From contig JAILKU010000011.1 of the NCBI GenBank assembly GCA_024693505.1, forward strand, positions 1 through 64,000: DNA of 64,000 nt, written 5' to 3'. This document shows positions 5,849-63,900 of the stretch, piece by piece (the first letter of the stretch is position 1; the number at the start of each line of letters is the position of its first letter). Position numbers and translations under genes: made by a program. The stretch comes from Bacteroidaceae bacterium (GTDB taxonomy: Bacteria; Bacteroidota; Bacteroidia; Bacteroidales; Bacteroidaceae). The notes under the pieces are model-generated. The model was not told the DNA's origin. It saw only the letters and a program-made list of their open reading frames with translations, and did no database searches.

Positions 5849-8800
5849 TCATTTGTTCCACAGCAGGGTGCCGTTGCCGGCCTGCCCGGCGGCCTCCACA
5901 ACGGGATGAGTGGTGCGACTGTTGTTCCAAAGAGTGACGTGGGATTCGCCCTTCTCGTCCAGTTGCAGGCTGGGGTTCCAGTAGAGGGTGCGGCGATAGT
6001 CGGAGGGCTCGGGCGGCGTCTGCTTCGAGTAGTCGGGGCTGTAGAACTGTGCAGGTCGTGCAAAACCCGGAAGGTTGGCCTTGCGGTAGGTAAACCTGTC
6101 GGGGGTATGACTGTCTTCATACGGATAGTAGGCGACAAAGACCTCGGGCAGGTTTGAGCCCCAGTAGCGGCGGTCGCCCTCCAGGCGCGGGCTGTAGTCG
6201 GTATAGACGACATAGCTTTCGGGCTTGTGGTAACCCATATCCCGGACTGCCGGATGGCTCTCGGGGAAGGACCGCAGATATTTGGGGTAGTACATGGAGT
6301 CGCGTGGTATGGAGTCCAGTTGCCTGATGATGCTCTGCTCCTCGGTAAGTGCATAGCGCTTCTTCATCTTCGAGGTCTTGTAGACTTGCGAGCCCCCGGT
6401 GATGGCATGTACATAAGGATTCGCGAGGCCCATGTCTCCGAAGAGGGTGCGCCCCAGGCGGTCGGGCATAAAGAGGATGATGCCGGCATCGGTCATCATG
6501 GTTTCTGCCTCGTCGCTGCTGAGTTTGAAAGCCGGCTGTGAATCATCGAAACGCCTCAGTCCGCCAAAGCGGGCCGAAATGGGAACTTCGCGCAACTGGT
6601 GGATGCTGTCGGCTAATAGTGCGGGTTCCATCAGCGCCCTGTCGGGTGAGTCGCTGAGATGTGTCTGATAGAAGGTGTATGGTTTTACGAAACGGGGCCA
6701 GGGACGGTCCAGGAGGACCAGGTTGTTATTGTTGTCTATCTCCAGACCCAGCCTGTTTTTCTTCTTTATGACTCGCTTTGTCTTCAGGTCGTTACGCTCA
6801 TTCAGGATGTCCAGTTTCGTCCATTGATTATTCCGGAACCAGTCTCCCTTGTCGTTGTTTGCTTCGTAGCGCCTGTATTTCTTTGCCATAGCCCGGAAGA
6901 TATACTCGCCGTAGAAACGCGGCAGTTGAATCTCGAAGTGCTGACCGCTGACCCGAAGTTCGGGGAAGTTATACCTTTGGCTGCCGCTGGGCGTCATCAT
7001 CTGCGAGGAAAGGACGTATTCCCTGCGTTTCCTGCTTGCCGCAGTAGCCCTGAGCGTCTTCATCCGGTCTTCTTGTGACTGTATATCAATACGGGGCAGG
7101 TCTTTGTCCTCCTCTATTTGCAGGGGCTCGGTATGCTCGTTTCCCAAAGATAATTCTCCCTTTACAAAGCTATATTTGCGTGCCCGCTTGAGTTCCCTTT
7201 CCTCTTCGCGCAGGCTGTTGGGGTCGAAGTTGAGGATGATTCCTCGCAGTATCTGGGCCCTCTCCCGGGGTTGCGTCTGTTTCCACTCTCCCTTGACGGC
7301 CATTTCATGCCAGTCGAACCGGCGCCAACCCTGCGTCATCATCAGCAGGTCCAGGGCCCGGCGGTGCTCTTCGTCGTCCTTTTCGAAGTACCATCCGGGA
7401 TTGGGGATAAAGCCCTTCAATTCGCTGGAAAGCAGCATTTCCGTCATGATGTTGCCGTTATCGAAGAGTTGGTCCTGCTGGTAACCGTCGCGGACGGAAA
7501 GGGAAAGACCCAGCCCCTCCCGTGAAGGGAGAGGATTTGCTGCCGTCACTTGCAGCTCAATCTTCTCGTATGGAATGTATTCGTTCTTTAGCCCGGAGAT
7601 GGTAAGCGTAGGCTTGGACAGCTCGGGTTTCGTGACGAAGAAGAGGCGGTCGGCATAAATGCGTCCCTGAGTATCGAACACCGTTACCTGATGGATACCG
7701 GCCTCTAACTTTGAATCATGAATGATGAATTGTGAATTGAGTTCGGCGAACTTCTCCATCACTCCTTCGTGCATTACCGTCAGAGCGAGGCTGTCAGGGT
7801 TGAGGCCGATGGCCTGTACCTTGATAATCCAGTCGTCGCCTGCCTGCTTTACGCTTAGTGCAACGCCTTGTTCCTCTGGCTTCGGCAGTTTTGCAGACAC
7901 CTTCTTCCCATCCTTTGTGGTGAAGGTGACTTCCCTCTCCATGTTACGTTCGGGCGTAATGGTGAAAATACCGCGTCCGCGATTGACGGCCGGAATCTCT
8001 TCCGAGCCCGCCTTTAGGCTACCCTCTAACTGCTCTCCATCGCTCCATGCCGCTTCAAAGGCCACGTTGTTCGGGATGCCTGCCACCAGATTGCCTCCTT
8101 CGGGGAAGAGTGAGAGGGTCATCTTGCGGCGGTTGGGGTCGCGGTGGTAGTAGCGCAGCATCGGCCGAAGCGTCATGTTGCGGGAATAGTCGCCCTTCAC
8201 CTTGGGACGGTCGTAGACGGGAAAAACGCGACTGTAGAGTTTCTCGTAGTCGCGATAGTAGTTCTTCTCCAGCTCTTTACTGAGGAACCATTCGCTCGCC
8301 GCCCATCCGTGCTTGTGCTCGAAGCAGCCCCAGTTGAGCTGCCAGCGCGTATAGGCCCTCAGCTCGTAGAAGCCGCTGTGCTGAATGGGGCGTTCCAGCA
8401 CGAAGTGACCTCGTCCCCATCCCTGTTTCATGTCGATTATCTTGCGTTCCACCAGATAGCCGTCGTTGTCGTACAGTTCTGCGTAGAGCACGTTGCTGAT
8501 GTTCGAGGGAGTGCAGAAGTCTGTCCGTTGCGTGTAGGCGGCAAACCAGATGGTGTCGCCCTGGAAGTATGAGGTGTTGTCCATGTGGAGGTAGACCTTC
8601 TCCTGAGGCCTCTTTTGGGCGAATGCCCATAGGTTGTCGCGAAGGGCCTTCAGTTTGGCATCGGCAACGCAGACGGTGTCTGGTGTGGGGAGCAGGCGCT
8701 TCTTGATGGCGGGCACACCGCCCTTCGTACCGAAAACGAGCTGCTCTTCGTGAGCCGTTCGTTTCACTATGCCGGAATGCTCCCACATGATAGAGTCGAA

Positions 8801-9898
8801 GCCGGCTGTGCTTATAGCTTCCTTGAAGTCCTCGCCCACAATCTTTCTTTGTCTCTTCTTCCTGCCCTTCAGCTGCGGGAACTCCATCTCGTCCACGTTG
8901 AAGACGATGCTGCGTATCGTCAGTTTCTGAGTTTTCATGTGTTGTGCGCTATGCGCCACCTCGGTGTAGCCGTTCTTGTGCTGGAACTCTATGTGTATGT
9001 GATTATCTCCCTCGGCCAATGCCTGGATGTCTCCCAATATTTTCATATAGAGTGTTTCGAAGTGACCGTCGAAGCGTAGCAGGCGATATGTGGCTGCATC
9101 AACATAGAGGCAGCCGGACAGCACGGGCGTCCCAGGGGCGTGGTTCTTTAGCTTCTGCCCGTTGTAGAACATATTGATGCGGCATATCTTCTCTCCGTTC
9201 TCGCCCGTAATGTAGACAGAGGAGATGTCGTAGTACTGGCTGTTCGCCTTCAGGTCGTTCAGGGGGAAAATGGCCTGGTTCCAGAAAGTGGTGGCACAGA
9301 CCATCGGAGCCACCTCCATCAGATGATGTATGTTTGTGGTGCTGATGTCCATCTCCTCCCATTCGTCGGCCTGGTCCTGCGACAGCTTGCCGTTCAGCAT
9401 CATGAAATTGTGCAGATTTACGGCCGAGCCGATGTCCATAATTGCCTCCAACATCTCGGCATTAGTGCTGTCCTTATTCACGACAACGCTGCGCGAGAAG
9501 TATCGCCTGCTACGCTTCTTCGCCTTTTTGTAGTCCTTCCTCAAGCGGTCTACCACCTTGCTGAGCAACTTGTTGTCGTCAGTTGGCCTTACCGTAACTT
9601 CGCGCAGGTCGATGGTCAGGGGCTTCAATCTTATGGGGCTTACCAGGTCGGCAGCCTTCAACGTCTGCGAGTAGTAGCCCACGCATCTTATGTGCATTAC
9701 CTCTTCGGGCTCCATCTTCAAGGTGAAGTCGCCCTCGTCATTGGTCAGCGTACCGCGGCCTTCTGATACGTAGATACTTACGCAAGGCAAAGGCTCGCCC
9801 GTCTCGGCATCGATTACGCGGGCGGTATAGGTCTGCTGCGCCGGCATCAGCTGAGGGCATAGCAGGGCGAGAAGGAGGGCGAAGAGAGTCTTTCTCAT
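5849..9898 (-). CDS. Large envelope protein with carboxypeptidase-regulatory-like and MG2-like domains
   Basis: A 1349-residue protein with a signal peptide (1-20, ending MPAQ). Residues about 22-100 form a CarboxypepD_reg-like beta sandwich (ARVIDAETGEPLPCVSIYV, then GTLTNDEGDF), the domain that usually precedes TonB-dependent receptors and other Bacteroidetes outer-membrane proteins. No plug or beta-barrel of a TonB receptor follows. Near residues 430-460 the phrase VYLHMDNTSYFQGDTIWF resembles the MG2 domain of alpha-2-macroglobulin-like proteins. The rest is predicted beta-rich, with a Lys/Arg-rich stretch around 930-970. This architecture occurs in Bacteroidetes proteins of unknown function, probably at the outer membrane or in the periplasm. 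A -7 element (TACCTTTG) lies just upstream on the minus strand. A heptameric repeat encodes part of residues about 720-729. It is a single-gene transcript bounded by terminator hairpins at 5765-5827. Confidence 0.7.
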   Translation of the reverse strand: MRKTLFALLLALLCPQLMPAQQTYTARVIDAETGEPLPCVSIYVSEGRGTLTNDEGDFTLKMEPEEVMHIRCVGYYSQTLKAADLVSPIRLKPLTIDLREVTVRPTDDNKLLSKVVDRLRKDYKKAKKRSRRYFSRSVVVNKDSTNAEMLEAIMDIGSAVNLHNFMMLNGKLSQDQADEWEEMDISTTNIHHLMEVAPMVCATTFWNQAIFPLNDLKANSQYYDISSVYITGENGEKICRINMFYNGQKLKNHAPGTPVLSGCLYVDAATYRLLRFDGHFETLYMKILGDIQALAEGDNHIHIEFQHKNGYTEVAHSAQHMKTQKLTIRSIVFNVDEMEFPQLKGRKKRQRKIVGEDFKEAISTAGFDSIMWEHSGIVKRTAHEEQLVFGTKGGVPAIKKRLLPTPDTVCVADAKLKALRDNLWAFAQKRPQEKVYLHMDNTSYFQGDTIWFAAYTQRTDFCTPSNISNVLYAELYDNDGYLVERKIIDMKQGWGRGHFVLERPIQHSGFYELRAYTRWQLNWGCFEHKHGWAASEWFLSKELEKNYYRDYEKLYSRVFPVYDRPKVKGDYSRNMTLRPMLRYYHRDPNRRKMTLSLFPEGGNLVAGIPNNVAFEAAWSDGEQLEGSLKAGSEEIPAVNRGRGIFTITPERNMEREVTFTTKDGKKVSAKLPKPEEQGVALSVKQAGDDWIIKVQAIGLNPDSLALTVMHEGVMEKFAELNSQFIIHDSKLEAGIHQVTVFDTQGRIYADRLFFVTKPELSKPTLTISGLKNEYIPYEKIELQVTAANPLPSREGLGLSLSVRDGYQQDQLFDNGNIMTEMLLSSELKGFIPNPGWYFEKDDEEHRRALDLLMMTQGWRRFDWHEMAVKGEWKQTQPRERAQILRGIILNFDPNSLREEERELKRARKYSFVKGELSLGNEHTEPLQIEEDKDLPRIDIQSQEDRMKTLRATAASRKRREYVLSSQMMTPSGSQRYNFPELRVSGQHFEIQLPRFYGEYIFRAMAKKYRRYEANNDKGDWFRNNQWTKLDILNERNDLKTKRVIKKKNRLGLEIDNNNNLVLLDRPWPRFVKPYTFYQTHLSDSPDRALMEPALLADSIHQLREVPISARFGGLRRFDDSQPAFKLSSDEAETMMTDAGIILFMPDRLGRTLFGDMGLANPYVHAITGGSQVYKTSKMKKRYALTEEQSIIRQLDSIPRDSMYYPKYLRSFPESHPAVRDMGYHKPESYVVYTDYSPRLEGDRRYWGSNLPEVFVAYYPYEDSHTPDRFTYRKANLPGFARPAQFYSPDYSKQTPPEPSDYRRTLYWNPSLQLDEKGESHVTLWNNSRTTHPVVEAAGQAGNGTLLWNK
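7710..7741. repeat. In-frame heptameric repeat (TGAATTG type) inside the 5849-9898 gene
   Basis: About four tandem seven-base units related to TGAATTG/TGAATGA lie inside the coding sequence. On the coding strand they give the segment SQFIIHDSK. The reading frame is kept. The array belongs to the heptamer family seen at gene junctions elsewhere in the window. Confidence 0.65.
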
Positions 9899-9930: not shown

Positions 9931-10012
9931 CGCTTATTTTTACGTTTTAAGCATGGGAAAATCCCTACCATTTGATAGGGGAATCCCTAAGAAGTGGAGC
10001 GGGTGTTTTTCT

Positions 10013-10078
10013 GCTAGACCCGGGTCTGGTAATTGCTAGACCCGGGTCTTGCAATTGCGGAACCCGGGTCTAGCAAAA
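10013..10078. repeat. Three 22-base tandem repeats carrying an ACCCGGGT palindrome
   Basis: Units start at 10013, 10035 and 10057, exactly 22 bases apart. The first two share AGACCCGGGTCT, a perfect 12-base palindrome, flanked by GCT and an AATT end; the third has AACCCGGGTCT. The array is followed by CAAAAATTCC. Related copies lie at 29218-29240 and 59812-59890. It sits between the start of one minus-strand gene and the stop of the next. Confidence 0.85.
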
Positions 10079-10085
10079 ATTCCTC

Positions 10086-11826: not shown

Positions 11827-11863
11827 AACTTTTCTTATTTTAATTCATAATTTATTTTCTCTT

Positions 11864-11912
11864 AACTATGGACTCATAACTCTGGGCTATGGACTCATAA
11901 CTCTGGACTTTC
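11864..11912. repeat. Heptameric tandem array with 21-base higher-order unit
   Basis: Seven-base units GGACTCA, TAACTCT and GGGCTAT follow one another, and the set of three is repeated (units starting about 11871 and 11892), giving a 21-base super-repeat. The array spans the stop codon of the GT14 gene (11887) and encodes its last few residues. Confidence 0.8.
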
Positions 11913-12795
11913 TCAATTCTTCGACCAACTTGTCGCTGCGGCCGCTGATGACCTTGCGGCAGAACATCTTTCCGCTGGCGAGGAGGCGGTCCAGGTCCGT
12001 CTCGTCCATAATCTTGATGACGGGGTCGTACTCGATGAAGTGCAGGGGTGTCAGGGCCGCCAGACTCTGGTAGGGTCCCTGGCTGAGGATACAGCGCCCA
12101 GCCCACTGAGTCGAGTTGAAGGCGATGGTCTGGATGAGTGTTTCGGCCGGGCAGAAGCTGTCGCGGAAGTAGCGGGATATCTGCGGCTTCGTCTCGTACT
12201 GCTCCAGGACGTAGGCGGCCAGTTCCTCCGAGATGCACCACCAGGCACTGCCCTTGTAGAGTTTCCACTCCCTGCCATCCACTTGGAAGTGACGCTTCTT
12301 GCGGTAGCCCGTCAGCTGAAGGGCTTTGCGGGCCAGAATGGCGAGTTTGCGGTTCCGGAAGTAGGGGCGCGATATGGTGTACATCTTCTGTTGCCGCTCG
12401 CCGATGTCTGGCGTATCGAGGCAAATGCCCTGCAGGAACTCGCGCCCAGCATTCTCCCGAAGGAACTGGTTGATATGCGAAGGGCTCCACAGCGGATAGT
12501 CCATCCCGCTCAGGAAGAAGATATGGTCGAAATGGCGCGGAAAGTGTACTGCCGCACGAATCAGGTTCATCTGGTATTCCACCTCAAGCATAGTGCCCCA
12601 TTGCACATTCACCCGCTCGGGAATGAAGTGGACGTTGGGCTGGTTGAGTTCCTTGAGGAAGGGCGCGATGTCCGCCTTTAGGTCGATATGCACAAAGTAT
12701 TCGGCCTCGGGCTGGAGGGCTTCGACAAGGCGCTTCAACTGAGGCGCATCGGTATGGGCTGATATCAGGTATGCGAGAGAGAGGTTAGAGTCCAT
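11887..12795 (-). CDS. GT14-type (core-2/I-branching) glycosyltransferase
   Basis: This 302-residue protein matches the Branch / beta-1,6-N-acetylglucosaminyltransferase-like family (GT14). The N-terminal YLISAHTDAPQLKRLVEAL is followed by YFVHIDLKAD, QWGTMLEVEYQMNLI and FFLSGMDYPL, then the acceptor-side GSAWWCISEE. The family is metal-independent and has an inverting GT-A fold; bacterial members add branching sugars to surface glycans. No signal peptide or transmembrane helix is present, so it is probably cytoplasmic or peripheral. It is 17 bases downstream of the flippase gene, which suggests a shared role in polysaccharide or LPS assembly. The ATG and stop both lie in heptameric arrays, so the terminal residues MDS and the tail are likely repeat-derived. 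Confidence 0.85.
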   Translation of the reverse strand: MDSNLSLAYLISAHTDAPQLKRLVEALQPEAEYFVHIDLKADIAPFLKELNQPNVHFIPERVNVQWGTMLEVEYQMNLIRAAVHFPRHFDHIFFLSGMDYPLWSPSHINQFLRENAGREFLQGICLDTPDIGERQQKMYTISRPYFRNRKLAILARKALQLTGYRKKRHFQVDGREWKLYKGSAWWCISEELAAYVLEQYETKPQISRYFRDSFCPAETLIQTIAFNSTQWAGRCILSQGPYQSLAALTPLHFIEYDPVIKIMDETDLDRLLASGKMFCRKVISGRSDKLVEELRKSRVMSP

Positions 12796-12832
12796 AGTTC
12801 ATAGTCCATAGTTTATAGTTCATAGTTATGGG
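12788..12832. repeat. Heptameric tandem array (TAGTYCA type)
   Basis: Six consecutive seven-base units close to TAGTTCA/TAGTCCA lie between the flippase stop (12813) and the GT14 start (12795), and run into both genes. On the minus strand they supply the GT14 start codon. Confidence 0.85.
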
Positions 12833-14276
12833 TTCGCTTTTTCAATAGGTATGCTATTGACTCCTTCATGATGTGGGCTCCACTAATCCACATTATTAAT
12901 ATATATAAGGAAGCGGCCATAACGACTTTTGCCAGCAATAGGAGCAGGAGGTTTTGGATGGGGTGCGTAGCCCACCAGGTAAAGGCCATTACGGCAAGGC
13001 TGGTCAGGAGGAAGGGGAGCACATCGCACAGGGCATCGAGCCAACGAAGGCCTATCAGACGGCGGGCTATGGACTGCCATACAAAAAGCCACAGCACGTT
13101 TATGCCGATGAAATAGACCACCATCACATACAATCCGAATCGTTTCAGAGCCACCAGCCCTACAAGGATGAGCAGACTCAGGCAGAGTGTGCTCCACATA
13201 TTGATATTGCTCCGTCCGCGACTGATAGCCAACTGGCTGTAGAGTGTGAGCAGGGGGAAGATGGCACCATAGAGACTTAGCATGGAGAGCAGCGTGGCAC
13301 TCTCGCTCCATTTCTCTCCCACCACCAGCACCAGAAACTCTCGGGCAATGAGGCCCATACCCAGCAGGCAGGGGAATGAGATGAAGGAGACAAAGCGTAG
13401 CATCTTGCGGAAGGTGCGCCGATAACGCTCCTCTTCATCAACTACGCGCGACAGAACGGGCTGCGCCACGCCTATCAGCATCCCGTTGATGGTATTGGAC
13501 GACATATCGGTCCATTTGCGGGCTGCGCCGTAAACGCCAGCCTGATAATCGCCGTAATACTTGCCGAGCAGCAGTCCGAAAGCGTTGCTGCTGAGACTGT
13601 TCACGATATTCGTAAGCAACAGCTTGCTGCTAAATCCGAACATGCGCCATGCAGGATGAAGGTCGATATGCAGCGAAGGCCGCCATGGCGAATAGCACCA
13701 GTTCATCAGAGCTACCACAAGGACGAACAGCACATACTGAACGGCCAGGCTCCAGTAGCCAAAGCCCGTCCAGGCCATCGCAACAGCCACGCAGCTGGAA
13801 ATGACTTGCGAGACGATGGCGATGATGCAGCTCTGGCGATTCATCAGATGGATGAAGAGATAGGCGCGCTGAACAGTGCCCAGGCTACTGAAGAAGAAAC
13901 CCAGGAAGAGGAAACGGCTCAGCCACAGGAGATCGGGGTCGTGATAGTAGTTTACGATAAAGGGGGCACAGAAGAATAGGAGGAGGTAAAGGGCCGTCCC
14001 GATGCCGGCCTGACACCAGAAGACGGCATTATAGTCGCGATGAGTGCGTTCCTTGAGGTTGCATAGGGCGGCTGTGAACCCACTCTCCTGCAGGACGCTG
14101 GCCAGGCCGGCAAAGACCATCAGCTTGGTTATCTTGCCCTGGGCAGAAGGGTCGAGCCGCTGCAGGATGAGGATGCCGAAGAGGGCACCCAGCACCTGCA
14201 CCGTCCCGTTATTCAGCAGGCCCCAAAGGAAACCGCGGGCAGCGCGAGACTTAAGAGTCCATAGTTCAGAGTCCAT
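12813..14276 (-). CDS. Polysaccharide flippase (MOP/Wzx-like)
   Basis: A 487-residue integral membrane protein with 12-14 hydrophobic helices, the usual size for MOP-superfamily oligosaccharide flippases. The N-terminal ARGFLWGLLNNGTVQVLGAL is the amphipathic/TM1 signature of the RfbX/Wzx group. A central YYGDYQAGVYGAARKWTDM segment matches the conserved loop of this family. It would move lipid-linked glycan intermediates across the inner membrane. The GT14 gene follows 17 bases downstream and metG lies 9 bases upstream. The first residues MDSELWTLKS are encoded by a heptameric array at 14251-14290, so the native start may have been extended by repeat growth. Confidence 0.87.
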   Translation of the reverse strand: MDSELWTLKSRAARGFLWGLLNNGTVQVLGALFGILILQRLDPSAQGKITKLMVFAGLASVLQESGFTAALCNLKERTHRDYNAVFWCQAGIGTALYLLLFFCAPFIVNYYHDPDLLWLSRFLFLGFFFSSLGTVQRAYLFIHLMNRQSCIIAIVSQVISSCVAVAMAWTGFGYWSLAVQYVLFVLVVALMNWCYSPWRPSLHIDLHPAWRMFGFSSKLLLTNIVNSLSSNAFGLLLGKYYGDYQAGVYGAARKWTDMSSNTINGMLIGVAQPVLSRVVDEEERYRRTFRKMLRFVSFISFPCLLGMGLIAREFLVLVVGEKWSESATLLSMLSLYGAIFPLLTLYSQLAISRGRSNINMWSTLCLSLLILVGLVALKRFGLYVMVVYFIGINVLWLFVWQSIARRLIGLRWLDALCDVLPFLLTSLAVMAFTWWATHPIQNLLLLLLAKVVMAASLYILIMWISGAHIMKESIAYLLKKRTHNYEL

Positions 14277-14290
14277 AGTCCTGGACTAAG
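14251..14290. repeat. Heptameric tandem array between metG and the flippase gene
   Basis: Units GAGTCCA and TAGTTCA alternate with seven-base spacing. The array contains the flippase start codon (14276) and reaches the metG stop (14286). Confidence 0.8.
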
Positions 14291-18612: not shown

Positions 18613-18692
18613 TAAAGGTTCAAAGGTTCAAAAGTTTAAGGTTCAAGGTTCAATTTTGAATTTATCAATTTTGAATTTTGCATTTTGAATTC
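18613..18692. repeat. Long heptameric array (AGGTTCA then ATTTTGA types)
   Basis: About eleven tandem units of seven (occasionally eight) bases fill the gap between rnr and the phosphoesterase gene. They run about 55 bases into the phosphoesterase 3' end, supplying its last residues (about MQNSKLINSKLNLEP). The first half is AGGTTCA-like and the second ATTTTGA-like. Confidence 0.85.
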
Positions 18693-22851: not shown

Positions 22852-22996
22852 CACTGTAAACCCTGCATTACTGTCTATTCCTGTAAACAGAGAAATTTCA
22901 TTGTGTAAATATATTTCATACATCATCTTAAGCTCTTTACACCCAATTTTGATTTTTGAATTTATAAATTTTGAAATTGAAAACAGGGTGCTATGT

Positions 22997-23160
22997 GTCA
23001 TGAGTGTCATGTGTCACGAGTGTCATTAAGGATTTTTGATTGGGCGGGTGATTTCAGGCTCATAATATATATAAATAGATTCATCTATTTATATATATTA
23101 TGCGGACTTTTCGCACTCCGATTTTGCTTAATGACACTCATGACACATGACACTCATGAC
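22997..23160. repeat. Compound inverted repeat: 34-base iteron arms
   Basis: The arm at 22997-23030 and the arm at 23127-23160 are reverse complements at 33 of 34 positions. Each arm is built from about four direct iterations of GTGTCAT, spaced by GA or nothing (GTGTCATGA, GTGTCAT, GTGTCACGA, GTGTCAT). The 96 bases between the arms contain the AT-rich palindrome at 23061-23102. The whole could fold as one long cruciform or RNA hairpin. It is followed by a run of A rather than T, so it is not a typical plus-strand terminator. Confidence 0.9.
23061..23102. repeat. 42-base AT-rich perfect palindrome
   Basis: The left arm (23061-23080) starts CATAATATATAT and ends AAATAGAT; the right arm (23083-23102) is its exact reverse complement. 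Only two bases (TC) separate them. It lies in the middle of the compound inverted repeat 22997-23160. The plus-strand flank 23103-23126 is unpaired. Confidence 0.92.
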
Positions 23161-23211
23161 CGCCCCGAAAAAAAAATGCCCAAGTATTCGTGAACCGCAA
23201 TCAAAATGTCG

Positions 23212-23377: not shown

Positions 23378-23435
23378 CACCAACAACAAACGACCACCAA
23401 CTACAAACCACAAACCACCAACCACAAACGACAAG
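23378..23435. repeat. C/A-rich heptameric array in the leader of the 23439 gene
   Basis: Eight consecutive seven-base units close to CACAAAC/CACCAAC end just before ATG 23439. There is no G apart from two CGAC variants, so the leader would be unstructured RNA on the coding strand. Confidence 0.8.
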
Positions 23436-23438: not shown

Positions 23439-23729
23439 ATGGCCAGAACAGCAATTGCACATCAGCACGAGGTAAAGCTCGGTAAGAATGCGGGGATGAA
23501 GTTCGCGATGCATCCCGCCTCGGGCATGCCCACCTGGGAGAACGAATCGTTAGCAGAGGCCTCCACCCGCAGCGGTATCTCTGCAGCAGTGGTCAGGGTG
23601 GCCGGGGAGGCCTCAGGCAAGATGATTCTCATGACAGTAGCCCCATTTTCAAGTGGACAGGATGCAGCAGGCAAGAAGATTCGCATGAAAGTAGCCCCTG
23701 TTTTATGCGGACAGAAAGCAGAAATATGA
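23439..23729 (+). CDS. Small protein of unknown function with an internal repeat
   Basis: A 96-residue ORF preceded by a good -7 promoter element (23212-23219) and a C/A-rich unstructured leader, and followed by the typA promoter. It starts MARTAIAHQHEVKLGKNAG. Residues about 58-94 consist of two imperfect copies of an 18-residue unit, (A/S)GKxIxMxVAPxxxGQxA, mirrored by a 57-base DNA repeat, so the tail grew by tandem duplication. There is no signal peptide or transmembrane helix. The middle part (ESLAEASTRSGISAAVV) faintly recalls the helix of Bacteroidetes HU-like DNA-binding proteins, which often have similar leaders, but the resemblance is too weak to name it. Expression looks plausible; function is unknown. 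It could also be a decayed gene. Confidence 0.5.
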   Translation: MARTAIAHQHEVKLGKNAGMKFAMHPASGMPTWENESLAEASTRSGISAAVVRVAGEASGKMILMTVAPFSSGQDAAGKKIRMKVAPVLCGQKAEI

Positions 23730-35631: not shown

Positions 35632-37914
35632 TCAAAATATGATTTTCTTTTTGCCAAAGATATAGATTCCATGATGAGGTGGCCTCGTCAAACGCTGCCC
35701 CTGCAGGTTGTATATTTCTTCTGGAATAGTTTGCGAACGATTTGCTCCAACTATTTCTCTTGTCTCGACGTCACAGAGATCTACCTTTTCTATAGTCAGC
35801 AGTCCATCGGTTACGCCATTCGTTAGGTCTATTGTCAGTAAATATGTGTCGCCCTCCTGCAGATGTGCCGTACTACGCAGATATACGATTCCATCGGTAT
35901 GACCCAGGTAACCCTTTCCGATGTCAAACTGCACGTTGCTAAGTGTCAGACGATATTCACTGCCCGTACGCCCCATGAATTGGGGCTCCAGTGTGGCGTA
36001 ATTGCCATATATGCCGAACTCTACGTACGAGGGATTGAGCTGCTCGCCTACGGTTATCGTTGTCTGATAGATCTGGTCGTGCACTTCGGCTAGGGGGATG
36101 GCGCGCTCGGGATCCCACTTCGTGCCGCCGATGTAATATGGTTTCCCAATACTGCCGGCCGGGCCGAGCAGGAAGAGGCTGCCTTGGCCCGAAGCATCCA
36201 TTGGGCGCAGGGTGGGACGTGCGGTAAGGGAACGCTCGTTCAGGTTAACGGTTACGAGATAGGTGTCGCTTTGCGGCATCAGGCGGAGGTGTCCGTCTTC
36301 ATCTGGACGGAAGAAATCGGGATCAATATACCACTGCGAGATGTCTTCGCCGTTTAGGAAACTGGCCTCGTAAACCTCGCCTTGAGTGAGAGCGGCGGTA
36401 AGGGTGAAGCGTTCCACGCTGGATCGACTCATTTTGTGGCCGCCCAGGGTGAGTATAAGGTCGGGATCCTGGGCGCTGAGGAGCACGGAAACAACGCTCT
36501 TGGAGGGTAGGTTCACAGAACCCACGCCGATGCCGCTGACGCCGAAGCACACGGTCTTGGACGACGAACTGCTGTTGGTGGCAATTATGCCATATGTACC
36601 GTCTGGATTTTGGAAGCAGGCGTACTGGATGTCGGTTACGCCATTGTTTGTGCCAATGCGCACGGCACCTGGCCTGACAACGGCTGCGATATGGCTGATC
36701 ATGTAGAAATGACTGTTGGCGGTTACGGTGTGATAGTCGTTCTGGTCGATGTCCAGGGCACCGTAGCAGGTGGTGCACCCGCCGTCGAGGTTGGGGCCTT
36801 TGTTCAGGTCGAGCATGTAGTTCCAGACGAGGACGGCGCTGCAGTAGCGGTTCACCGTAGCGATGACGGTCTGCTCGGTATCGTAGAGCAGGCGCGCGCT
36901 GAGGTTGCGTCCGTCGTTCCACTCGCCGATGCTAGCCTCGGTGAATATCATATCCTGGAGGGGCGCCTTCTGGTGGATGTCGTCGAGCTCGGAGGGACTG
37001 CCTCCGTAGTTATGCCAGGCCGAGCCGACAATGAGCTCACGACCCTGCAGGCTCTCGCCCAGGGCATCATAGACCTTGATGGGGTAGTCTAGCTGGTCCG
37101 ATTTGCCATCATAGTTATAGTTGTGGTCGAAGACGTATATCTTCGTCTGCAGTCTTGCCTGCGCGAAGGCGGGTGCTAGGTGCTGCAGGAAGGCGGCCTG
37201 TTCGTTCCATGGCATGAGCAGGGAGGCGCAGTTACCGCCGTTGAGGGGCTCGTTTTGGGGTGTTACGGCATAGATCGGTATGCCCTGTGCCTGGAAGGCC
37301 TGCACAAAGCGCACGAAATACTGGGCATAGTCAGCATAGTAGCGGGGATTGAGGTGACCGCCCGTCCAAGAGTTATAGGCTGACTGGTCACTGAGGCTGC
37401 GTACCTTCATCCATCGGGGACAGGTCCAGGGTGCGGCGATGATCTTCAGCTGAGGATTTATCTGCAGGATTTCTTTCAGGATGGGAATGACAAAGTCCGT
37501 CTCGTCTTTCTGCAGGGCGAAGTTGGAGAGTCCCTGCTTGTCGCAGAGCGTATATTCGGTACTGCTGAAATCGCTGCATCCGATGCTGATGCGCACGTAG
37601 CTGCATCCGTATCCGGTCGTGGCGCTGAAGGTGCGGCGAAGCAAGGCCTGGCGGTCGCGCGGCTGCATCCTGAGCAGGTTGTAGCAGGCACTATAGGTCA
37701 TGGCATAGCCGAAACCTTCCATTGTCTGGTACTGCTCAGAGGGCCGTAGGATGACGGAACTGCCGGAGATTGTGCTACGCGTCTTCTTGACCGCCATCTC
37801 CATTAGCTTCTTGCCGTCGGCGGTGGTGGTGTAGGTCTGGTAATATTGGGCCCGCAGTGCCGATGCACAGCACAGCAGAAGGAACAGAATTGTTTTTCTT
37901 AATTCATAATTCAT
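35632..37914 (-). CDS. GH30 glycosidase with T9SS-like tail
   Basis: The start is set at ATG 37914 (MNYELRKTILFLLLCCASA), which begins the signal peptide. The in-frame ATGs at 37935 and 37956 come from a 21-base repeat and add two copies of MNFGLWI. The 760-residue product has the GH30 (beta/alpha)8 barrel with acid/base Glu in VTPQNEP (about residue 220) and nucleophile Glu in FTEASIGEW (about 330), and the family's side beta-domain. An additional beta module (about 430-690) follows, and a C-terminal sorting-like tail ending IYIFGKKKIIF. GH30 members cleave beta-glucosidic, beta-xylosidic and related bonds; the subfamily is undetermined. Probably cell-surface or secreted. Nine bases separate the longest ORF from the GH31 stop. 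Confidence 0.87.
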   Translation of the reverse strand: MNYELRKTILFLLLCCASALRAQYYQTYTTTADGKKLMEMAVKKTRSTISGSSVILRPSEQYQTMEGFGYAMTYSACYNLLRMQPRDRQALLRRTFSATTGYGCSYVRISIGCSDFSSTEYTLCDKQGLSNFALQKDETDFVIPILKEILQINPQLKIIAAPWTCPRWMKVRSLSDQSAYNSWTGGHLNPRYYADYAQYFVRFVQAFQAQGIPIYAVTPQNEPLNGGNCASLLMPWNEQAAFLQHLAPAFAQARLQTKIYVFDHNYNYDGKSDQLDYPIKVYDALGESLQGRELIVGSAWHNYGGSPSELDDIHQKAPLQDMIFTEASIGEWNDGRNLSARLLYDTEQTVIATVNRYCSAVLVWNYMLDLNKGPNLDGGCTTCYGALDIDQNDYHTVTANSHFYMISHIAAVVRPGAVRIGTNNGVTDIQYACFQNPDGTYGIIATNSSSSSKTVCFGVSGIGVGSVNLPSKSVVSVLLSAQDPDLILTLGGHKMSRSSVERFTLTAALTQGEVYEASFLNGEDISQWYIDPDFFRPDEDGHLRLMPQSDTYLVTVNLNERSLTARPTLRPMDASGQGSLFLLGPAGSIGKPYYIGGTKWDPERAIPLAEVHDQIYQTTITVGEQLNPSYVEFGIYGNYATLEPQFMGRTGSEYRLTLSNVQFDIGKGYLGHTDGIVYLRSTAHLQEGDTYLLTIDLTNGVTDGLLTIEKVDLCDVETREIVGANRSQTIPEEIYNLQGQRLTRPPHHGIYIFGKKKIIF

Positions 37915-37963
37915 AATCCATAATCCAAAATTCATAATCCATAATCCAAAATTCATAGTTCAT
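37901..37963. repeat. Heptameric array with duplicated 21-base super-unit
   Basis: Nine consecutive seven-base units close to TAATTCA/TAATCCA. The triplet TTCATAA, TCCATAA, TCCAAAA is present twice, giving a 21-base repeat that preserves reading frame and creates two extra in-frame ATGs before the GH30 signal peptide. Confidence 0.9.
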
Positions 37964-41247: not shown

Positions 41248-43473
41248 TCAAAGTCTCTTAACCTCCTTTATTTCGTCTATTTTCTTTAAATCACGACAAA
41301 TTGTCTGCAAATTGGAAACGTCATGGACTTCCAAAAGGATTTCTCCCTGGAATATGCCATCCTGTGCTTCGATGTTAAGCCGCTTCATATTTACATTTAG
41401 CTGACGAGAAAGAACTTCCGTGATTTGATGCATTACGCCTAAGTGATCTATCCCTTCCATGTGAATTGTTGCGGGGAAAAACAATTGCTTATGAGTATCC
41501 CAGTTTGCAGCCAGAATGTGATTGCCGTCGCTTGCCTTAAGTTTGTCTGCAATGGGGCACTGACGTTTGTGGATAGTTATGCTGTTTTTTTCGTTAATAT
41601 AACCCAGGACATCATCACCTGGGATTGGACGGCAGTGCTCACAGATAATATAATGCCCGATTGTCTCCTCGTTCAGGAGAAGCGTTTTCTTGCGGTCCAT
41701 TGTCCATTGTTCATTGTTCATTGACCATTGGTCTGATGACTGTATCCCTTCTGCATGCATGAAGGGAATATAGCGCCGCCAGGCGCGACGGGTCTGAAGA
41801 ACTTTCCGGTCAGGTGAAGACAGCGTTATGGTTCCATTCCCTATTGCCAATAGCAGTTCCTCTCGGGAGGAAAAACCATGAAGCTGGCGCAGACGATCAA
41901 TATTTACACTGTCTGGCTCCTTCTCAATTTGTTTAAAGAATTCTGTTAACAAATCCTCTCCATGCTTCTGCTTTTCTCTTTCCTCGCGACGGAGAATGGC
42001 CTGAACTTTACCCCGGGCCTTAGCCGTAGTGACGTATTCCAGCCATTGCGGTTCAACCTTTTGTTCCCTGGATGTCAGAATTTCCACCTGATCGCCGCTC
42101 TCCAATCGGTGATTGATGGAAACCAGACGATGGTTTACTTTTGCAGCAATGCAATGCGTGCCTAAGAAGGTGTGAATATTGAAGGCAAAATCGAGAACTG
42201 TACTTCCTGCAGGCATTGTTTTGAATTCACCTTTAGGCGTCACCACGAAAATCTCACTGGCATACAGGTTCAGTTTAATCGCATCAAGGAAATCTATTGC
42301 ATTTGGCTGAGGGTCGTCAAGTATTTCCTTTATTGTACCGAGCCATCGGTCAAGCTCGTTCTCGCTGTCTTCGATCGTGCCTCCTCCCTCCTTATATTTC
42401 CAATGAGCAGCAAATCCCTGTTCGGCCATGTCATCCATTCGACGACTTCTTATCTGGACTTCTACCCAGCGCCCGGTCTTGCTCATCAATGTGGTGTGCA
42501 GAGCCTGATAACCGTTTGTCTTCGGGTGGTTTATCCAGTCACGGAATCGCTCCGGATGAGGCTTGTATATCCGGCTACAGACTGAATAGATTTGGAAGCA
42601 ACGTGCGTTTTCATCTACACCATCCTCTATCTCAAAAATAATCCTGACCGCCAGAATGTCATAGATTTCCTCGAATGAGACATGTTTGTTTTGCATTTTG
42701 CTCCATATACTATAAGGAGTTTTTATGCGAGCCTTTATTTCATATTTCAGTCCGATTTGGTCTAAACTCTCGCGGATAGGCTGGGTGAACTGCTCAAATA
42801 TCTCATGCAGATGCCCCTCCATACTTGCCAGCCTGTCCTTTAGCTGCTGGTATTCTTCGGGATGTTCATATCGGAAACTTAGGTCTTCCAGCTCCTCTTT
42901 CACTTTATTCAGTCCCAGACGATTTGCCAGTGGCGCATAAATGTACAGCGTTTCTCCTGCGATTTTATATTGCTTGCCCGGGAGCTGGCTTCCCAAAGTA
43001 CGCATATTATGTAAACGGTCAGAGATCTTGATGAGGATTACCCGGATATCGTTACTCATCGTCAGCAGGAGTTTCTTGAAGGACTCTGCCTGTGCAGAAG
43101 CTTTGTCACCGAAGATTCCACCTGAAATCTTTGTCAGCCCATCCACGATTTCGGCTATTTTCGGCCCGAAGAGATTTGCAATGTCCTCTATTGTGTAGTC
43201 CGTATCTTCAACTACATCATGAAGTAACGCTGCACAGATGCTGGTGCTCCCTAATCCGATGGACTCACAGGCGATCTGTGCCACCGCAATAGGATGCATG
43301 ATATATGGCTCGCCCGAGAGACGACGGACTCCTTTATGGGCCTGCTTCGCAAAGTTATAAGCCTTGTCGATAATTTCAACATGCTTGCGGTGATGCGAGT
43401 TAAGGTAGGTCTCCACCAAATGCTGGTAGGCCTCGCTCACCATTTTCTCGTCTTTAATCTCTCTCTCCGTCAT
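41248..43473 (-). CDS. rel: RelA/SpoT family (p)ppGpp synthetase/hydrolase
   Basis: A 741-residue bifunctional stringent-response enzyme making and degrading (p)ppGpp. The HD hydrolase domain (about 45-190) contains HPIAVAQIA and the metal motif LLHDVVEDTD, indicating that hydrolase activity is retained. The synthetase domain (about 235-360) has RIKTPYSIWSKM and DILAVRIIFE. TGS (about 400-460), helical/zinc-finger (CEHCRPIPGDDVLGY) and C-terminal ACT domains follow. Between TGS and the zinc finger, residues about 581-593 (QWSMNNEQWTMD) are encoded by a heptameric array, an insertion not expected in the family. It lies 13 bases downstream of the lytic transglycosylase gene, in an order common in Bacteroidetes. 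Confidence 0.95.
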   Translation of the reverse strand: MTEREIKDEKMVSEAYQHLVETYLNSHHRKHVEIIDKAYNFAKQAHKGVRRLSGEPYIMHPIAVAQIACESIGLGSTSICAALLHDVVEDTDYTIEDIANLFGPKIAEIVDGLTKISGGIFGDKASAQAESFKKLLLTMSNDIRVILIKISDRLHNMRTLGSQLPGKQYKIAGETLYIYAPLANRLGLNKVKEELEDLSFRYEHPEEYQQLKDRLASMEGHLHEIFEQFTQPIRESLDQIGLKYEIKARIKTPYSIWSKMQNKHVSFEEIYDILAVRIIFEIEDGVDENARCFQIYSVCSRIYKPHPERFRDWINHPKTNGYQALHTTLMSKTGRWVEVQIRSRRMDDMAEQGFAAHWKYKEGGGTIEDSENELDRWLGTIKEILDDPQPNAIDFLDAIKLNLYASEIFVVTPKGEFKTMPAGSTVLDFAFNIHTFLGTHCIAAKVNHRLVSINHRLESGDQVEILTSREQKVEPQWLEYVTTAKARGKVQAILRREEREKQKHGEDLLTEFFKQIEKEPDSVNIDRLRQLHGFSSREELLLAIGNGTITLSSPDRKVLQTRRAWRRYIPFMHAEGIQSSDQWSMNNEQWTMDRKKTLLLNEETIGHYIICEHCRPIPGDDVLGYINEKNSITIHKRQCPIADKLKASDGNHILAANWDTHKQLFFPATIHMEGIDHLGVMHQITEVLSRQLNVNMKRLNIEAQDGIFQGEILLEVHDVSNLQTICRDLKKIDEIKEVKRL
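41695..41731. repeat. Heptameric array (TTGTYCA type) in frame inside rel
   Basis: Five seven-base units TTGTCCA/TTGTTCA/TTGACCA lie inside the coding sequence and encode a Met/Asn/Gln/Trp-rich segment, WSMNNEQWTMD. The frame is kept. Confidence 0.85.
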
Positions 43474-48225: not shown

Positions 48226-48269
48226 CCCTTCCGCTTCAGGCAAAGGCAAGTTGCAAGCTATAGTTTCCC

Positions 48270-48365
48270 TAACTGGACTCTAATTGAACTCTAATTGGAC
48301 TCTATTTGGATTTATGTATATCTCTAGTTCCTCTCTAGTTCCTCTCTAATTCCTCTCTAGTTCTT
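48270..48365. repeat. Two adjacent 11-base tandem arrays
   Basis: Units TTGGACTCTAA-like (48275-48310, about three copies) are followed after a short gap by TTCCTCTCTAG-like units (48324-48365, about four copies). Both have an 11-base period and share CTCTA. They lie between surE and the TolC-like gene. Confidence 0.85.
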
Positions 48366-58433: not shown

Positions 58434-58476
58434 TGTTCTTTTTCTTTTTTGATGGGGTTAATAGGGGGAGTAGGTT

Positions 58477-58545
58477 TGACTAGGAATAACTAGGATTGGC
58501 TAGGAATAACTAGGATTGACTAGGTCTTCCTGGGGCTTTCCTAGA
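58477..58545. repeat. 10-base tandem array (TAGGAATAAC / TAGGATTGRC)
   Basis: Seven units of exactly ten bases, starting TAGG, TGGG or CTAG, alternate in sequence and reach the stop codon of the nucleotidyltransferase gene (58541). Confidence 0.88.
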
Positions 58546-59501: not shown

Positions 59502-59811
59502 TACAACAATTATATGAAACTATTGCATTATTGCCTGAATAATTTTCAAACACGGCCGAAATAATCTAAAACATTATGCCTCTCAAAGGGATAGAGTGGG
59601 GGAATGTTTTCTTCGTAATTATCCGATCCGGCCTTTGAAATGTAGCGGCCGAGGTAGTGAAATGCGGCCTCGTATTCAATACATTTAGACTCGGTTCTGG
59701 AAGCTTTTTGTAAATTATTTTGGTCGGAAAAACGGTTCTCCTATTTCTTTAATTTGGATGAAGAGCGACTTTCTGCCTGTCGTTTTTTGGAGAAATATCG
59801 GTTCCATTATT

Positions 59812-59890
59812 GCAAGACCCGGGTTCCATAACTGCAAAACCCGGGTTTGCTAACTGCAAACTCCGGGTTCCACCCTAGCAAAATTCCGCT
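59812..59890. repeat. 22-base ACCCGGGT array, three units plus tail
   Basis: Units start at 59812, 59834 and 59856, exactly 22 bases apart, each beginning GCAA and holding an ACCCGGGT-like core (the third reads TCCGGGT). The tail GCAAAATTCC is shared with the arrays at 10013 and 29218, in the same orientation. Confidence 0.85.
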
Positions 59891-60003: not shown

Positions 60004-60057
60004 GAGAATCGCGTATATGCAATCGGAATGCCATTCCTCTCCAAATACGCGATTCTC
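60004..60057. repeat. Nested hairpin with GAGAATCGCGTAT arms
   Basis: GAGAATCGCGTAT (60004-60016) is inverted exactly as ATACGCGATTCTC (60045-60057). The loop contains a second inverted repeat, GGAAT with ATTCC. The 54-base structure has no T-run after it, so a terminator role is doubtful. Confidence 0.8.
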
Positions 60058-60115
60058 GCAAGGCATGTTGTAAGATTTTTTCTGAATCGTATAGGATTAG
60101 TGAAGGCATAGAAAC

Positions 60116-60820
60116 CTATTCCTTAATCCTGATGCGCTTAATGACAACCTCCTTAAGCGGCCGTTCATGCTCGTCGGTGCGCAGGCGGTTGATGTATTGC
60201 ACAACGGGCAAACCGTCCACAACCTCGCCGAAGACCGTATAGTCGCCGTCCAGATGAGGGCATCCGCCTCGGGTGGTATAGGCCTGCTTCTGCTGCTCGG
60301 TAAGTGGGGGACGGGTGCGGGTGGTGTCGCTGTCGCGCATAAACTGGTTCAGCTCTGCCAGAGAACCGCGGTCGTACACCTTTCCCGATACGATATAAAA
60401 CTGCGTAGAACTGCTTTCGCGACCAGGATTTACATCGTCCGCCTCTCGAGCCATAGCCAGGGCTCCGGCCTTGTGGAAGTGGCGCGGATAGACAATCTCG
60501 GGCGGAACGGTATAGTGGTACTTGGACGTATCGGCTGTAAGCTTCTGTCCGTGTGCCTTCAGGGTGAGATCGCCCGTCTGAATGGTGCCTTCGGGCACTA
60601 TGCGGTTCCAGAGGAGACCGTCGTAAACGCCTTCGCGGACGAGGCGGATGAAGTTGTCGCGGTGCTGAGGCGTATCGTCGTAGAGGCGAAGAGTGATATT
60701 ACCGCGAGAGGTCTCGATAACCACTTCAGTACGTCCGATGGCATCGCGCTTGCTGCCCGAACAGGCGGCAATCAACCAGGCTGAAAGGCCCAAAAGAACG
60801 GGAAAGAGGAGTTTTTTCAT
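60116..60820 (-). CDS. Cyclophilin-type peptidyl-prolyl isomerase lipoprotein
   Basis: A 234-residue periplasmic lipoprotein: the signal peptide ends in the lipobox LIAAC (Cys20). The cyclophilin core has EVVIETSRGNITLRLYDDTPQHRDNF, VREGVYDGLLWNRIV, QFYIVSG (active-site Gln/Phe) and YTVFGEVVDGLPVVQYI. A LTEQQKQAYTTRGGCPHLDG insert before the last block occurs in Bacteroidetes paralogues. It catalyses proline isomerisation in exported proteins. It is divergent from the TamB-like gene. The -7 element is at 60844-60851. Confidence 0.93.
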   Translation of the reverse strand: MKKLLFPVLLGLSAWLIAACSGSKRDAIGRTEVVIETSRGNITLRLYDDTPQHRDNFIRLVREGVYDGLLWNRIVPEGTIQTGDLTLKAHGQKLTADTSKYHYTVPPEIVYPRHFHKAGALAMAREADDVNPGRESSSTQFYIVSGKVYDRGSLAELNQFMRDSDTTRTRPPLTEQQKQAYTTRGGCPHLDGDYTVFGEVVDGLPVVQYINRLRTDEHERPLKEVVIKRIRIKE

Positions 60821-60843
60821 ACATTAAAGATGTTTAGCGCATG

Positions 60844-60851
60844 CAAACTTA
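60844..60851 (-). promoter_or_regulatory. -7 promoter element for the isomerase gene
   Basis: The minus strand reads TAAGTTTG (TAnnTTTG), 23 bases before ATG 60820. Confidence 0.6.
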
Positions 60852-60883
60852 CGAAATAAACTCCGTTTCTCCCGTTTTTTTCA

Positions 60884-60891
60884 TACCTTTG
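60884..60891 (+). promoter_or_regulatory. -7 promoter element for the TamB-like gene
   Basis: TACCTTTG fits TAnnTTTG and lies 24 bases before ATG 60916. The -33 is weak. Confidence 0.6.
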
Positions 60892-60915
60892 TTGCGGTAT
60901 TTGCTTAATTTCGGA

Positions 60916-63900
60916 ATGAAAAAGGCGCTGAAGTGGATATGCGGGATAGTACTGACACCATTGGTGACAGTACTATTGCTGGCCCTGTTGCTCTATGTGC
61001 CGCCTGTACAGCGCAGGGTGGTACAATGGGCCGCAAGCTATGCCAGCAGGCAGACGGGAATGCAGATATCCATCGGCCAGTTGCACATCTCCTTCCCGCT
61101 TGACCTGGACCTGCAGGGCCTGACGGTCATCGACCCGCCCGACACGCTAATCTGCGTAGAGCGTGCTGTAGCCGACTTGGACCTGAGTCACATCCTGCAG
61201 CGGCGCATCGGCCTGAATGCCCTGGACCTGGAGGGCGGACGGCTGAACCTGAGGATTGAGAGCAGCGACGACAGCGACAGCACGAAGACCTCGCTGCCGG
61301 AGTTACTGCTGGGCGTGGACAGGATCCGCATCGCACGAAGCAGCGTCATCATAACTCTGCCTGCCGACTCCATCGCTGTGGACGGCATGATAGACGAGGC
61401 CGTGCTGGAGGAGGGCGAGGTGGACCTGGCCCGCGGATATTATGCCGCCAAACACTTCTCGCTGGATGCGCAAAGGCTGGAGTATAGACGGGGTTTAAAG
61501 TTTCAAGAGCCAAAGGCTACGGGGGAAGAGCTGCAAAGCGAGACAGGGTTCGATCACCTGGCTTTCCGAGCTCTGGAGGCGGAACTGAAGGACTTCAGTT
61601 TCGACCAGCAGACGGGCGAGTTGAGAGGAAACTTGACCAGGGGAACCTTCGAGGAGGAAAGGGGCCTGGTGCTGAAGGCGCTGCGCAGTCAGGTCTTCCT
61701 GAACGGCGAGGGCATCCGCTTGGGCAAGCTCTACATGGAAACGCCGCACAGCAACGTCCAAGGCAACGTAAACCTGGAGTGGGGGGCGCTGAGGGCTCAG
61801 AAGGTTCAAGGGTTCAAGGGTTCAAAAGGTTTAAAAGGTTCAAATGTTCAAAGGGTTCAAGAGATGCAGGCCGTGCTGAAGGCCAGTCTGGGGCACGAAG
61901 ACGTAACGTGTCTGGCCGATCGCTATCTGGGGCAGGAGACGGCCGCCTTCTATCCCCAAAAGCCGATAGACCTGGACCTTGACGTTAAGGGAAACATAGA
62001 CAGCCTGGGCATCGACCTCTGCCACCTGAATATGCCAGGCGTGATGGACTTGCAGGCCACGGGATGGGCCACAGACATCCTGGACTCTCTGCACCGCGGG
62101 GCCGACATCGTATGGGACGCCAAAACGATGGACCTCTCCTTCGTAAACCGGATGGCAGACCTGGAAAACCTGCACCTGCCGCCAATGGTTCTGAACGCCA
62201 TCACCCGTATGAAAGGGCAACACTACGAAGCCGATGCCCTGCTGACCGAGGGAAGGGGACGCGCCCACATAAAGGGCACGCTGGACACCAAAACGATGAG
62301 CTACAAGGCTCGGGCCCGTATTCAAGGCCTTCAGCTGCACAACTTCCTGCCCTCTGATTCGCTCTACGAACTGACGGCCTCGGCATTTGCTGAGGGAAGG
62401 GGTACGGACTTCCTATCGCCCCGCACTCGCCTGAAAGCCGAGGCGCGGGTGGAACATCTCAGGTACGGCCGATGGAATCTGGACAGCCTGCGGGCGAATG
62501 CCCTGCTCCAACAAGGGTGTGCCGAACTGAACATGGAGAGCAACAACCGACTACTGGGAATGAACGGCTGCGTGAATGCCACGATAGACAAGGCCATCAC
62601 CGGCGCCACATTCAGCCTGGATATGAGCCGCATAGACCTTTATGCCCTTGGTCTGGTGCCCAAACCGTTTAAGTTGAGTATGGTCATGAATGTGGACGGA
62701 GAAAGCAACTTGCGCGATACTCACCAGCTGAGCGGGCACGTTCAGGCTATGGAACTGGTGCTGAGCGATACGGTAGTGCATCCCCTGGACATGAAACTGG
62801 AGGCCCTGATGCGGCCCGACACGCTCTATGCCAGCGCTGAGGCGGGAGATATGACCCTGACGATGCAGGCTCGAGGCGGACTGGAACTGCTGAAGGCACA
62901 GGCCGAGGCATTCGGCAGCGAACTGGACAGACAGCTGAAGGCTTACCAGCTCGACCAGGACACGCTACGCACCCTGCTGCCCACTCTGAGTCTGCAGCTC
63001 CACACAGGTCGAAACAATCCGCTCTGCAACTTCCTGCGTCCGATGGGTTATACCTTCGAAGCGCTCCATCTTGACTTGGCCTCGAACCCCACAGACGGAC
63101 TGAACGGTTACGGACAGCTGAACACGCTAAGCACGGGTGCCATACTGCTGGATACCATTCAGATGCGCATCTATCAGGACAGCACAGGCGTTAGCATGAA
63201 CGGACGAGTGCGCAACGGTCCGAGGAACAAGGTGGTGAGCTTCGAATCGACCGTGCATGCCGATCTGACACCAACGGGAGCGGCCGCTTCGCTCATCTTC
63301 CGCGACGCCAAGGGGAAGAAGGGTATGGACCTGGGCTTGCGGGCAGACATGGATCTGGACGGGATGACGCTGCACTTCACACCGCTGAACCCCGTTATCG
63401 CCTATCGTAACTTCACCCTGAATGCCGACAACTTCATTACGCTGACCAGCGAGCACCGCATCGAGGCGCTTGTTGACCTTCTGGCCGATGACGGAACGGG
63501 CCTGAAGCTCTACAGCACACCAAACGACGAGGCCCTGCAGGATCTATCGCTAAGCGTGAACCACTTCAACGTGGGCGAGCTGGCGCAAGTTCTTCCGTAC
63601 ATGCCCGATTTGGGCGGACTCCTGCATGGCGATTTACACTACATCCAAGCGGACAGTACAACGCTTTCCGTATCGACCGACATGACGGTTGAGCGCATGA
63701 CATACAACGGCACCGCAATGGGGAACATCGGGCTAAACGCCGTCTATCTGCCCAACCCGGACGGTACGCACTACGTGGACGGCATAATCAGTCAAGACGG
63801 CGCCGAAGTGGTGTTGCTGAACGGTATGTACCGTCAGGAGAACAGGCAGGGCGTGATAGAAGCTACGGCCCAGCTGCAGGAGCTGCCAATGAGTCTGGCC

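Follow-up and report, generated by a model that had tools for sequence, protein, structure and literature searches.

The short tandemly repeated repetitive (STRR) sequences of cyanobacteria are heptameric, dispersed and mostly intergenic, and miniature inverted-repeat transposable elements (MITEs) are non-autonomous inverted-repeat elements. Intervening sequences (IVSs) occur within 16S and 23S rRNA genes, and RNase III removes them; for Coxiella, the published account describes a terminal stem of 28 bp and, ahead of the S23 open reading frame (ORF), heptameric repeats that vary in number between strains (PMC4990558). Here we analyse a 64,000-nt stretch of a Bacteroidaceae bacterium from the rumen (the window; contig JAILKU010000011.1, assembly GCA_024693505.1), whose genome, G000, comprises 3.59 Mb in 180 contigs at 87% completeness, and which carries dispersed arrays of 7-8 base tandem repeats. 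On balance, and with modest confidence, we read these arrays as a class of hairpin elements at operon junctions that would work like rRNA IVSs. The initial annotation knew no standard element of this kind; this misses a lead, since in relatives such arrays form inverted pairs around genes of the PF05635 family or around short loops between same-strand genes.

In two relatives, L050 and L116, the junction between metG and the flippase gene, which in the window carries the array 14251-14290, holds a 118-aa gene between inverted heptamer arrays. This gene belongs to PF05635 (23S_rRNA_IVP, hereafter IVP). Three matches above the PF05635 cut-off are found in G000. The IVP gene of contig C74, the protein of which matches PDB entry 2rld at 2e-38, is flanked by inverted AATGGAC/GTCCATT arrays, and that of C102 by inverted ATGTAAA/TTTACAT arrays; the match on C52, with an internal stop and at a contig end, was left unjudged. 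The family is present in 126/139 genomes of the genus and in 235/296 genomes of the phylum, the phylum search being restricted to genomes of at least 90% completeness.

To this we added a sample of 105 IVP loci (30 from a genus search, 40 picked from the genus list, 30 from a phylum search and 5 own or near), which represents high-scoring loci and not a random draw. The IVP ORF was recovered in 104 of them (it was missed in L129), and 103 had both flanks. Compared with dinucleotide-shuffled flanks, complementarity of the two flanks exceeded z = 3 in 64/69 genus and 17/30 phylum loci, and in 9/196 control genes. Period-7/8 arrays (score at least 10) occurred on both flanks of 41/103 IVP loci versus 2/196 controls; arrays on at least one flank are frequent at ordinary genes too (30/196 controls). 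The arms of the genus loci, at the same threshold, have periods of 7 (35), 8 (51), 9 (5), 10 (8) and 12 (10). Furthermore, the IVP ORF lies on the strand of both neighbours in 92 of the 94 callable loci (66/66 genus or near and 26/28 phylum; 10 of the 104 loci were excluded at edges), against a baseline of 518/969 gene triples, or 95/180 when the middle gene is short; the two neighbours are a median of 500 bp apart. This sense bias is our chief reason to place the element at the RNA level. In the minimum free energy (MFE) structures of seven whole cassettes, the arms were paired over 29-77 bp. One cassette arm, in L159 (1078-1452), extends over 375 bp, its 8-base units being arranged in a higher-order period of 24.

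Two junctions were compared between relatives. At the V-ATPase B/D junction, compared in 30 loci, ten spacers measure 3-6 nt, that of L278 0 and that of L271 16 nt; nine loci (L267, L269, L281, L283, L285, L288, L290, L291 and L293) hold array hairpins with MFE z-scores of -3.6 to -7.4; one, that of G000 (L264), is an IVP cassette; five carry other spacers (L265, L266, L268, L280, L282); and L270, L272 and L287 were not readable. In G401 (L265), which of the genomes compared is closest to G000, a spacer of 42 nt takes the place of the G000 cassette. An arm string of 32 nt is common to the gene-less hairpin L288 and the IVP cassettes L157, of the same genome (G379), L161 and L175. At the araD-araA junction, the IVP model matches 7/30 loci. 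The IVP proteins of the L234/L235 group share 60-61% identity with those of the L238/L240/L246 group, and the two groups have different array units; arms score 26-32 within their own cassette and 13-17 when swapped between the groups. The own arms of L246 and L262 did not rank first, in L246 because its group has one common unit, and L245 lacked the right flank. Collectively, IVP genes lie in sense orientation between complementary arms, the same junction occurs in empty and occupied states, a gene-less hairpin and IVP cassettes have arm sequence in common, and the units vary between species yet are matched within a cassette.

The window itself holds one hairpin of the gene-less type (22997-23160), with arms of 34 nt that are 97% complementary and 96 nt apart; the surrounding region 22925-23185 has an MFE of -100.8 (z -11.5). 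The window yielded no IVP ORF. Its arrays (Table 1) were located with Tandem Repeats Finder (TRF) and a lag scan with score thresholds of at least 16 for the window and at least 13 for other stretches, dinucleotide-preserving shuffles serving as controls. These searches confirmed the annotated period-7 arrays overall, with corrections. Upstream of the RNase R gene the step is not strictly seven bases, periods 7 and 8 being mixed; the array at 14251-14290 falls below a TRF score of 30 and shows about four units by eye only; that near 7710 is present but weak; and the units, most of which had been described as ending in TYCA, are of another type at 23393-23434. The claims that three arrays (7710, 41695, 61799) read through in frame in called genes and that the last is a looser relative were borne out. 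At score 16 or more, the window has 4 period-7 segments, and 10 shuffles had 0. The ORF 23439-23729 has no Pfam match. The array at 14251-14290 also encodes the first residues of the flippase, which starts N-terminally otherwise in relatives with and without IVP.

Table 1. Tandem arrays and hairpin arms of the window.
Feature	Position	Strand	Context	TRF call (period 7 or multiples unless stated)
Short heptamer array	7712-7739		In frame within gene 5849-9898 (-)	7712-7730, 2.7 copies
Period-21 (3 x 7) array	11859-11909		Glycosyltransferase stop / Rce1-like gene start junction	11859-11909, period 21
Heptamer array	12789-12827		Over polysaccharide_synt (flippase) stop and glycosyltransferase start	12789-12827
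Short array	14251-14290		Over metG stop; supplies flippase start codon	
Arrays of TTGAACC and AATTTTG types, periods 7 and 8 mixed	18614-18691		Upstream of RNase R gene	18615-18691, mixed 7 and 8
AATTTTG-type period-7 array	22945-22975		Adjoins hairpin element	
Hairpin left arm (units TGACACTCATGACACA)	22997-23030	+	Between epimerase gene and gene 23439 / BipA	
Hairpin right arm	23127-23160	+	Pairs with 22997-23030	
ACCACAA array	23393-23434	+	Directly before ORF 23439-23729	23393-23434
Longest heptamer array, 9.7 units	37896-37963		GH31 / GH30 junction, over GH30 gene start	37896-37963, 9.7 copies
Heptamer array	41695-41730		In frame within RelA/SpoT gene	41695-41730
Period 8/9 array (AAGGTTCA)	61797-61861		In frame within gene 61060-63999 (+, leaves window)	61797-61861, period 8/9

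The arrays of the window belong to a genome-wide family. A search of the 3.59-Mb genome with the pattern TATGRACTATGRACTATG (at most 2 mismatches), of the kind proposed in the initial annotation, gave 68 matches versus 1 for the reversed pattern. Beside the window, 40 further stretches of G000 (0.58 Mb in total) were read, 20 on contigs with pattern matches and 20 on contigs without any listed match; since both sets are biased by this choice, the claim of abundance rests on the whole-genome count. In the match-rich stretches, period 7 ranks first among periods 4-35, with 37 segments (score at least 13), followed by 27 at period 14 and 11 each at 21 and 22; in the stretches without listed matches it is second, with 4 segments versus 7 at period 22, and shuffles of the stretches gave means of 0 to 0.3 segments per period. 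An equal density in shuffled sequence, named in the initial annotation as a refuting outcome, was thus not observed in the window or the stretches. One unit class, AATTATG (all rotations, both strands), accounts for 21 of the 64 period-7 arrays in window and stretches, and AATGGAC for 13; with columns permuted within arrays (20 runs), no class exceeded 5. These counts support the initial view of dispersed arrays related by a common heptamer. The arrays do favour gene borders, as had been claimed: 53/64 lie outside called genes (6 of the 53 at stretch ends) in sequence that is 83% coding, and 11/64 lie inside them.

Within the family Bacteroidaceae the pattern is patchy. At most 1 mismatch being allowed, TATGRACTATGRACTATG matched 25/301 genomes, among them 6/22 of its own genus (G000 counted) and 5/19 of genus g30, and four other genomes together held the 6 matches of the reversed control. 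The pattern occurs 94 times in G010, a genome with a listed completeness of 100%. A second family, of octamers (GTTGACRA), occurs in 68/139 genus genomes, and was not found in G000, G401, G010 or G374; 6/19 of its sites have an inverted partner (20 were fetched, one without an array).

Solo arrays in same-strand spacers tend towards the orientation of hairpin arms. For the G000 heptamers, 13 of 14 arrays fit, 8 reverse near stops and 5 forward near starts, with one exception; of the 39 arrays at the outset, 10 near both borders, 2 far from any and 13 of unclear orientation were excluded. For the octamers, in 50 loci, 17/23 solo arrays and 8/8 in hairpins fit the arm orientation, although arrays of one locus are not independent, and 32 arrays had no clear place and were excluded. 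Codon seeds could cause the rule for heptamers and would do so less easily for octamers. Neighbouring strong arrays (at most 2.5 kb apart) follow no inverted or direct rule, with 6 direct and 3 inverted pairs. The glycosyltransferase gene between the 11864 and 12788 arrays was considered as cargo and rejected, the 37 nt of 73% complementarity being like those of several other distant pairs.

The nearest relative provides a view of array turnover. G401 and L049 were taken as one genome because their junction sequences are identical; the metG tree pairs L049 with the window with full support, and G401 is 84% identical in DNA to the window over 10-19 kb and 79% over 35.6-43.5 kb. It lacks arrays at 37901 and 41695, and its ortholog of gene 5849-9898 (L049) lacks that of the 7712 site. 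At 11864 only a degenerate stretch is seen, the run at 18613 is short, the units at 14251 have diverged, and the window's 12788 site has an array of another unit, AACTTTG. These absences and unit changes indicate fast turnover.

Full-form elements would consist of the stop of gene 1, a 7-8 base array, a sense IVP/S23 four-helix gene, the complementary array and the start of gene 2. The shorter form would comprise two complementary arrays with a short loop, and a single array would be one remaining or nascent arm. We infer that base pairing between the arms takes place in the polycistronic transcript and that the hairpin is either removed there, much as RNase III removes IVSs from rRNA, or tolerated; arrays may lengthen by slippage, and copying across the hairpin may keep the two arms alike. 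For the genus, the association of 7-8 base arrays with PF05635 hairpin cassettes at operon junctions has good support; for the phylum, the support is moderate. That the window's solo arrays are single arms of such elements is plausible, and excision and mobility are inferred. A bolder proposal, which we advance tentatively, is that the elements are phylum-wide RNA-level selfish elements of Bacteroidota, operonic intervening sequences: array hairpins with or without an S23/IVP gene between co-transcribed genes, which might be tolerated because an intercistronic cut is harmless, with arms kept complementary by cross-hairpin copying and the 7-8 base dialects as their footprint.

Several observations weigh against reading the arrays as IVS-like hairpin elements. 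An inverted partner no more than 400 bp away was found for only 4/85 of the G000 arrays sampled (for random segments, 0/85), and G000 has 3 IVP genes above cut-off and far more arrays; since most sampled arrays are solo, individual G000 arrays may also have arisen by the slippage growth that the initial annotation named. In the metG loci of 80 relatives, the orientation rule held in only 5/8 arrays. With the flanks of other IVP loci as a null, which is inflated by homologous cassettes, 38/103 loci exceeded the 99% level (33/69 genus, 2/30 phylum, 3/4 near). RNA duplexes of the arms are weakly better than those of shuffled arms, with median z of -1.26 in the genus and -1.50 in the phylum and with 29% and 27% of loci, respectively, below -3, and duplex energy was therefore dropped as a main argument. 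At the metG/flippase junction, short arrays occur at the start of the flippase gene in the IVP-less relatives L298 and L295 as well, and gain and loss are not distinguished by the metG tree. For these two reasons the attractive reading of the window's junction, by alignment, as the scar of a lost IVP cassette is not claimed.

Furthermore, inverted arms are not specific to IVP genes. DUF559 (PF04480) genes, present in 100/139 genus genomes, also lie between inverted arms (L368-L397, and L063 20938-21330), with z above 3 for 27/30 ORFs, and 25 of the 27 callable genes share the strand of both neighbours; with these genes as a counter-example, inverted arms were rejected as a feature peculiar to IVP. 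They differ in that their arms are of the CCCCTCCCC/GGGGAGGGG type where a repeat is visible, and not 7-8 base arrays. DUF559 is a second class of operon-junction cassette. CCCCTC/GAGGGG stretches recur in its arms.

The main rival explanation is neutral slippage, in which arrays grow in place from seeds at gene borders (TAA/TAG/TGA, ATG), independently of IVP, the arms of IVP cassettes being subject to the same process. It agrees with the 81/85 sampled arrays that lack an inverted partner, with the short flippase-start arrays of IVP-less relatives, with the two arrays missing from G401, and with a difference in length at one site, the left arm of araD-araA having 19.4 units in G000 versus 4.3 + 3.4 in G401 (sister species, not strains). 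We regard it as rather unlikely. The presence of one class in 21 arrays, together with genome-specific dialects, points to copying or constraint; an independent origin of each array does not fit this count, though a common constraint could give the same. Slippage alone gives no inverted complementary arms that change together. It also leaves the octamer orientation rule unexplained, the octamer unit before start codons containing no ATG.

A second rival supposes that arrays are translation punctuation under selection at borders: as neither 7 nor 8 is divisible by 3, every reading frame would meet stops and, in certain dialects, ATG as well, so that neighbouring genes are sealed off or coupled. 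IVP left arms do have 4.81 stops per 60 nt in sense versus 3.34 in antisense (p 1e-8, n 104), and the arrays 12789-12827 and 14251-14290 cover stops and starts. Right arms, however, show the opposite (3.81 versus 4.96), as expected of plain complements, IVP arms of periods 9, 10 and 12 exist, and neither the arrays inside genes nor the absence of the 37901 and 41695 arrays in G401 agrees with such a role, which makes it improbable. An assembly artefact is very hard to credit: the fragmentation and incompleteness of this metagenome-assembled genome and the proneness of tandem arrays to assembly errors would allow it, but arrays occur at orthologous junctions, with common flanking genes, in separately deposited assemblies, and the complete-listed G010 is rich in the pattern.

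Other repeats of the window are of different kinds. GC-rich, partly palindromic intergenic 22-base tandem repeats (around ACCCGGGT) lie at 10012-10076 and 59800-59872; G401 has scattered copies resembling them, and among the tandem periods of relatives' metG loci, 22 is the most frequent, with 68 segments in 1.33 Mb. The arrays at 48269-48363 and 58471-58524 have periods of 11 (CTAATTGGACT, TCTCTAGTTCC) and 10/20 (TAGGATTGAC). Directly after the stop of gene 5849-9898 (-), a 29-nt inverted repeat with 90% complementarity and a 15 nt loop (5758-5830) is possibly a terminator.

We know of no established function for PF05635. If the proposed hairpin elements are real, this widespread family would gain a genomic niche outside rRNA and an enigmatic intergenic repeat would be tied to it; the origin and movement of rRNA intervening sequences would become testable in multicopy systems. 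Species-specific units matched within a cassette would constitute a natural record of hairpin-templated sequence copying.

Judged by the titles and abstract starts of the matches listed, no description of such elements was met in the literature, and absence from print is not claimed. The arrays resemble cyanobacterial STRR sequences in their period of 7, their dispersal and their mostly intergenic position, a likeness of description and not of sequence, and STRR sequences are not known to us to be linked to inverted IVP arms. As with MITEs, short gene-less hairpins stand beside fuller forms with the same arms, as the 32-nt string of L288 illustrates. They differ from MITEs in that no transposase was identified here and that the arms are tandem arrays; IVP is not known to us as a transposase. 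The likeness to the rRNA IVS of Coxiella comprises inverted repeats at the termini, a loop that holds a PF05635 ORF and, immediately ahead of that ORF, tandem heptamers (PMC4990558); this heptamer parallel was met only after the link between arrays and IVP had emerged here. Complementary termini of the IVS type are found in IVP loci and in the window hairpin, and not in most solo arrays, and an S23/IVP ORF occupies the loop in relatives' cassettes and in the C74 and C102 loci of G000. An Rfam search of the window returned one tRNA and nothing else, and a location inside an rRNA gene was not seen, given the same-strand genes that bracket nearly all callable IVP loci, though the search for rRNA covered the window only. 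Whereas the known IVSs lie in rRNA genes, the loci described here lie between protein-coding genes; both of their arms consist of tandem repeats of a unit peculiar to them, and gene-less hairpins and solo arrays exist alongside the full cassettes.

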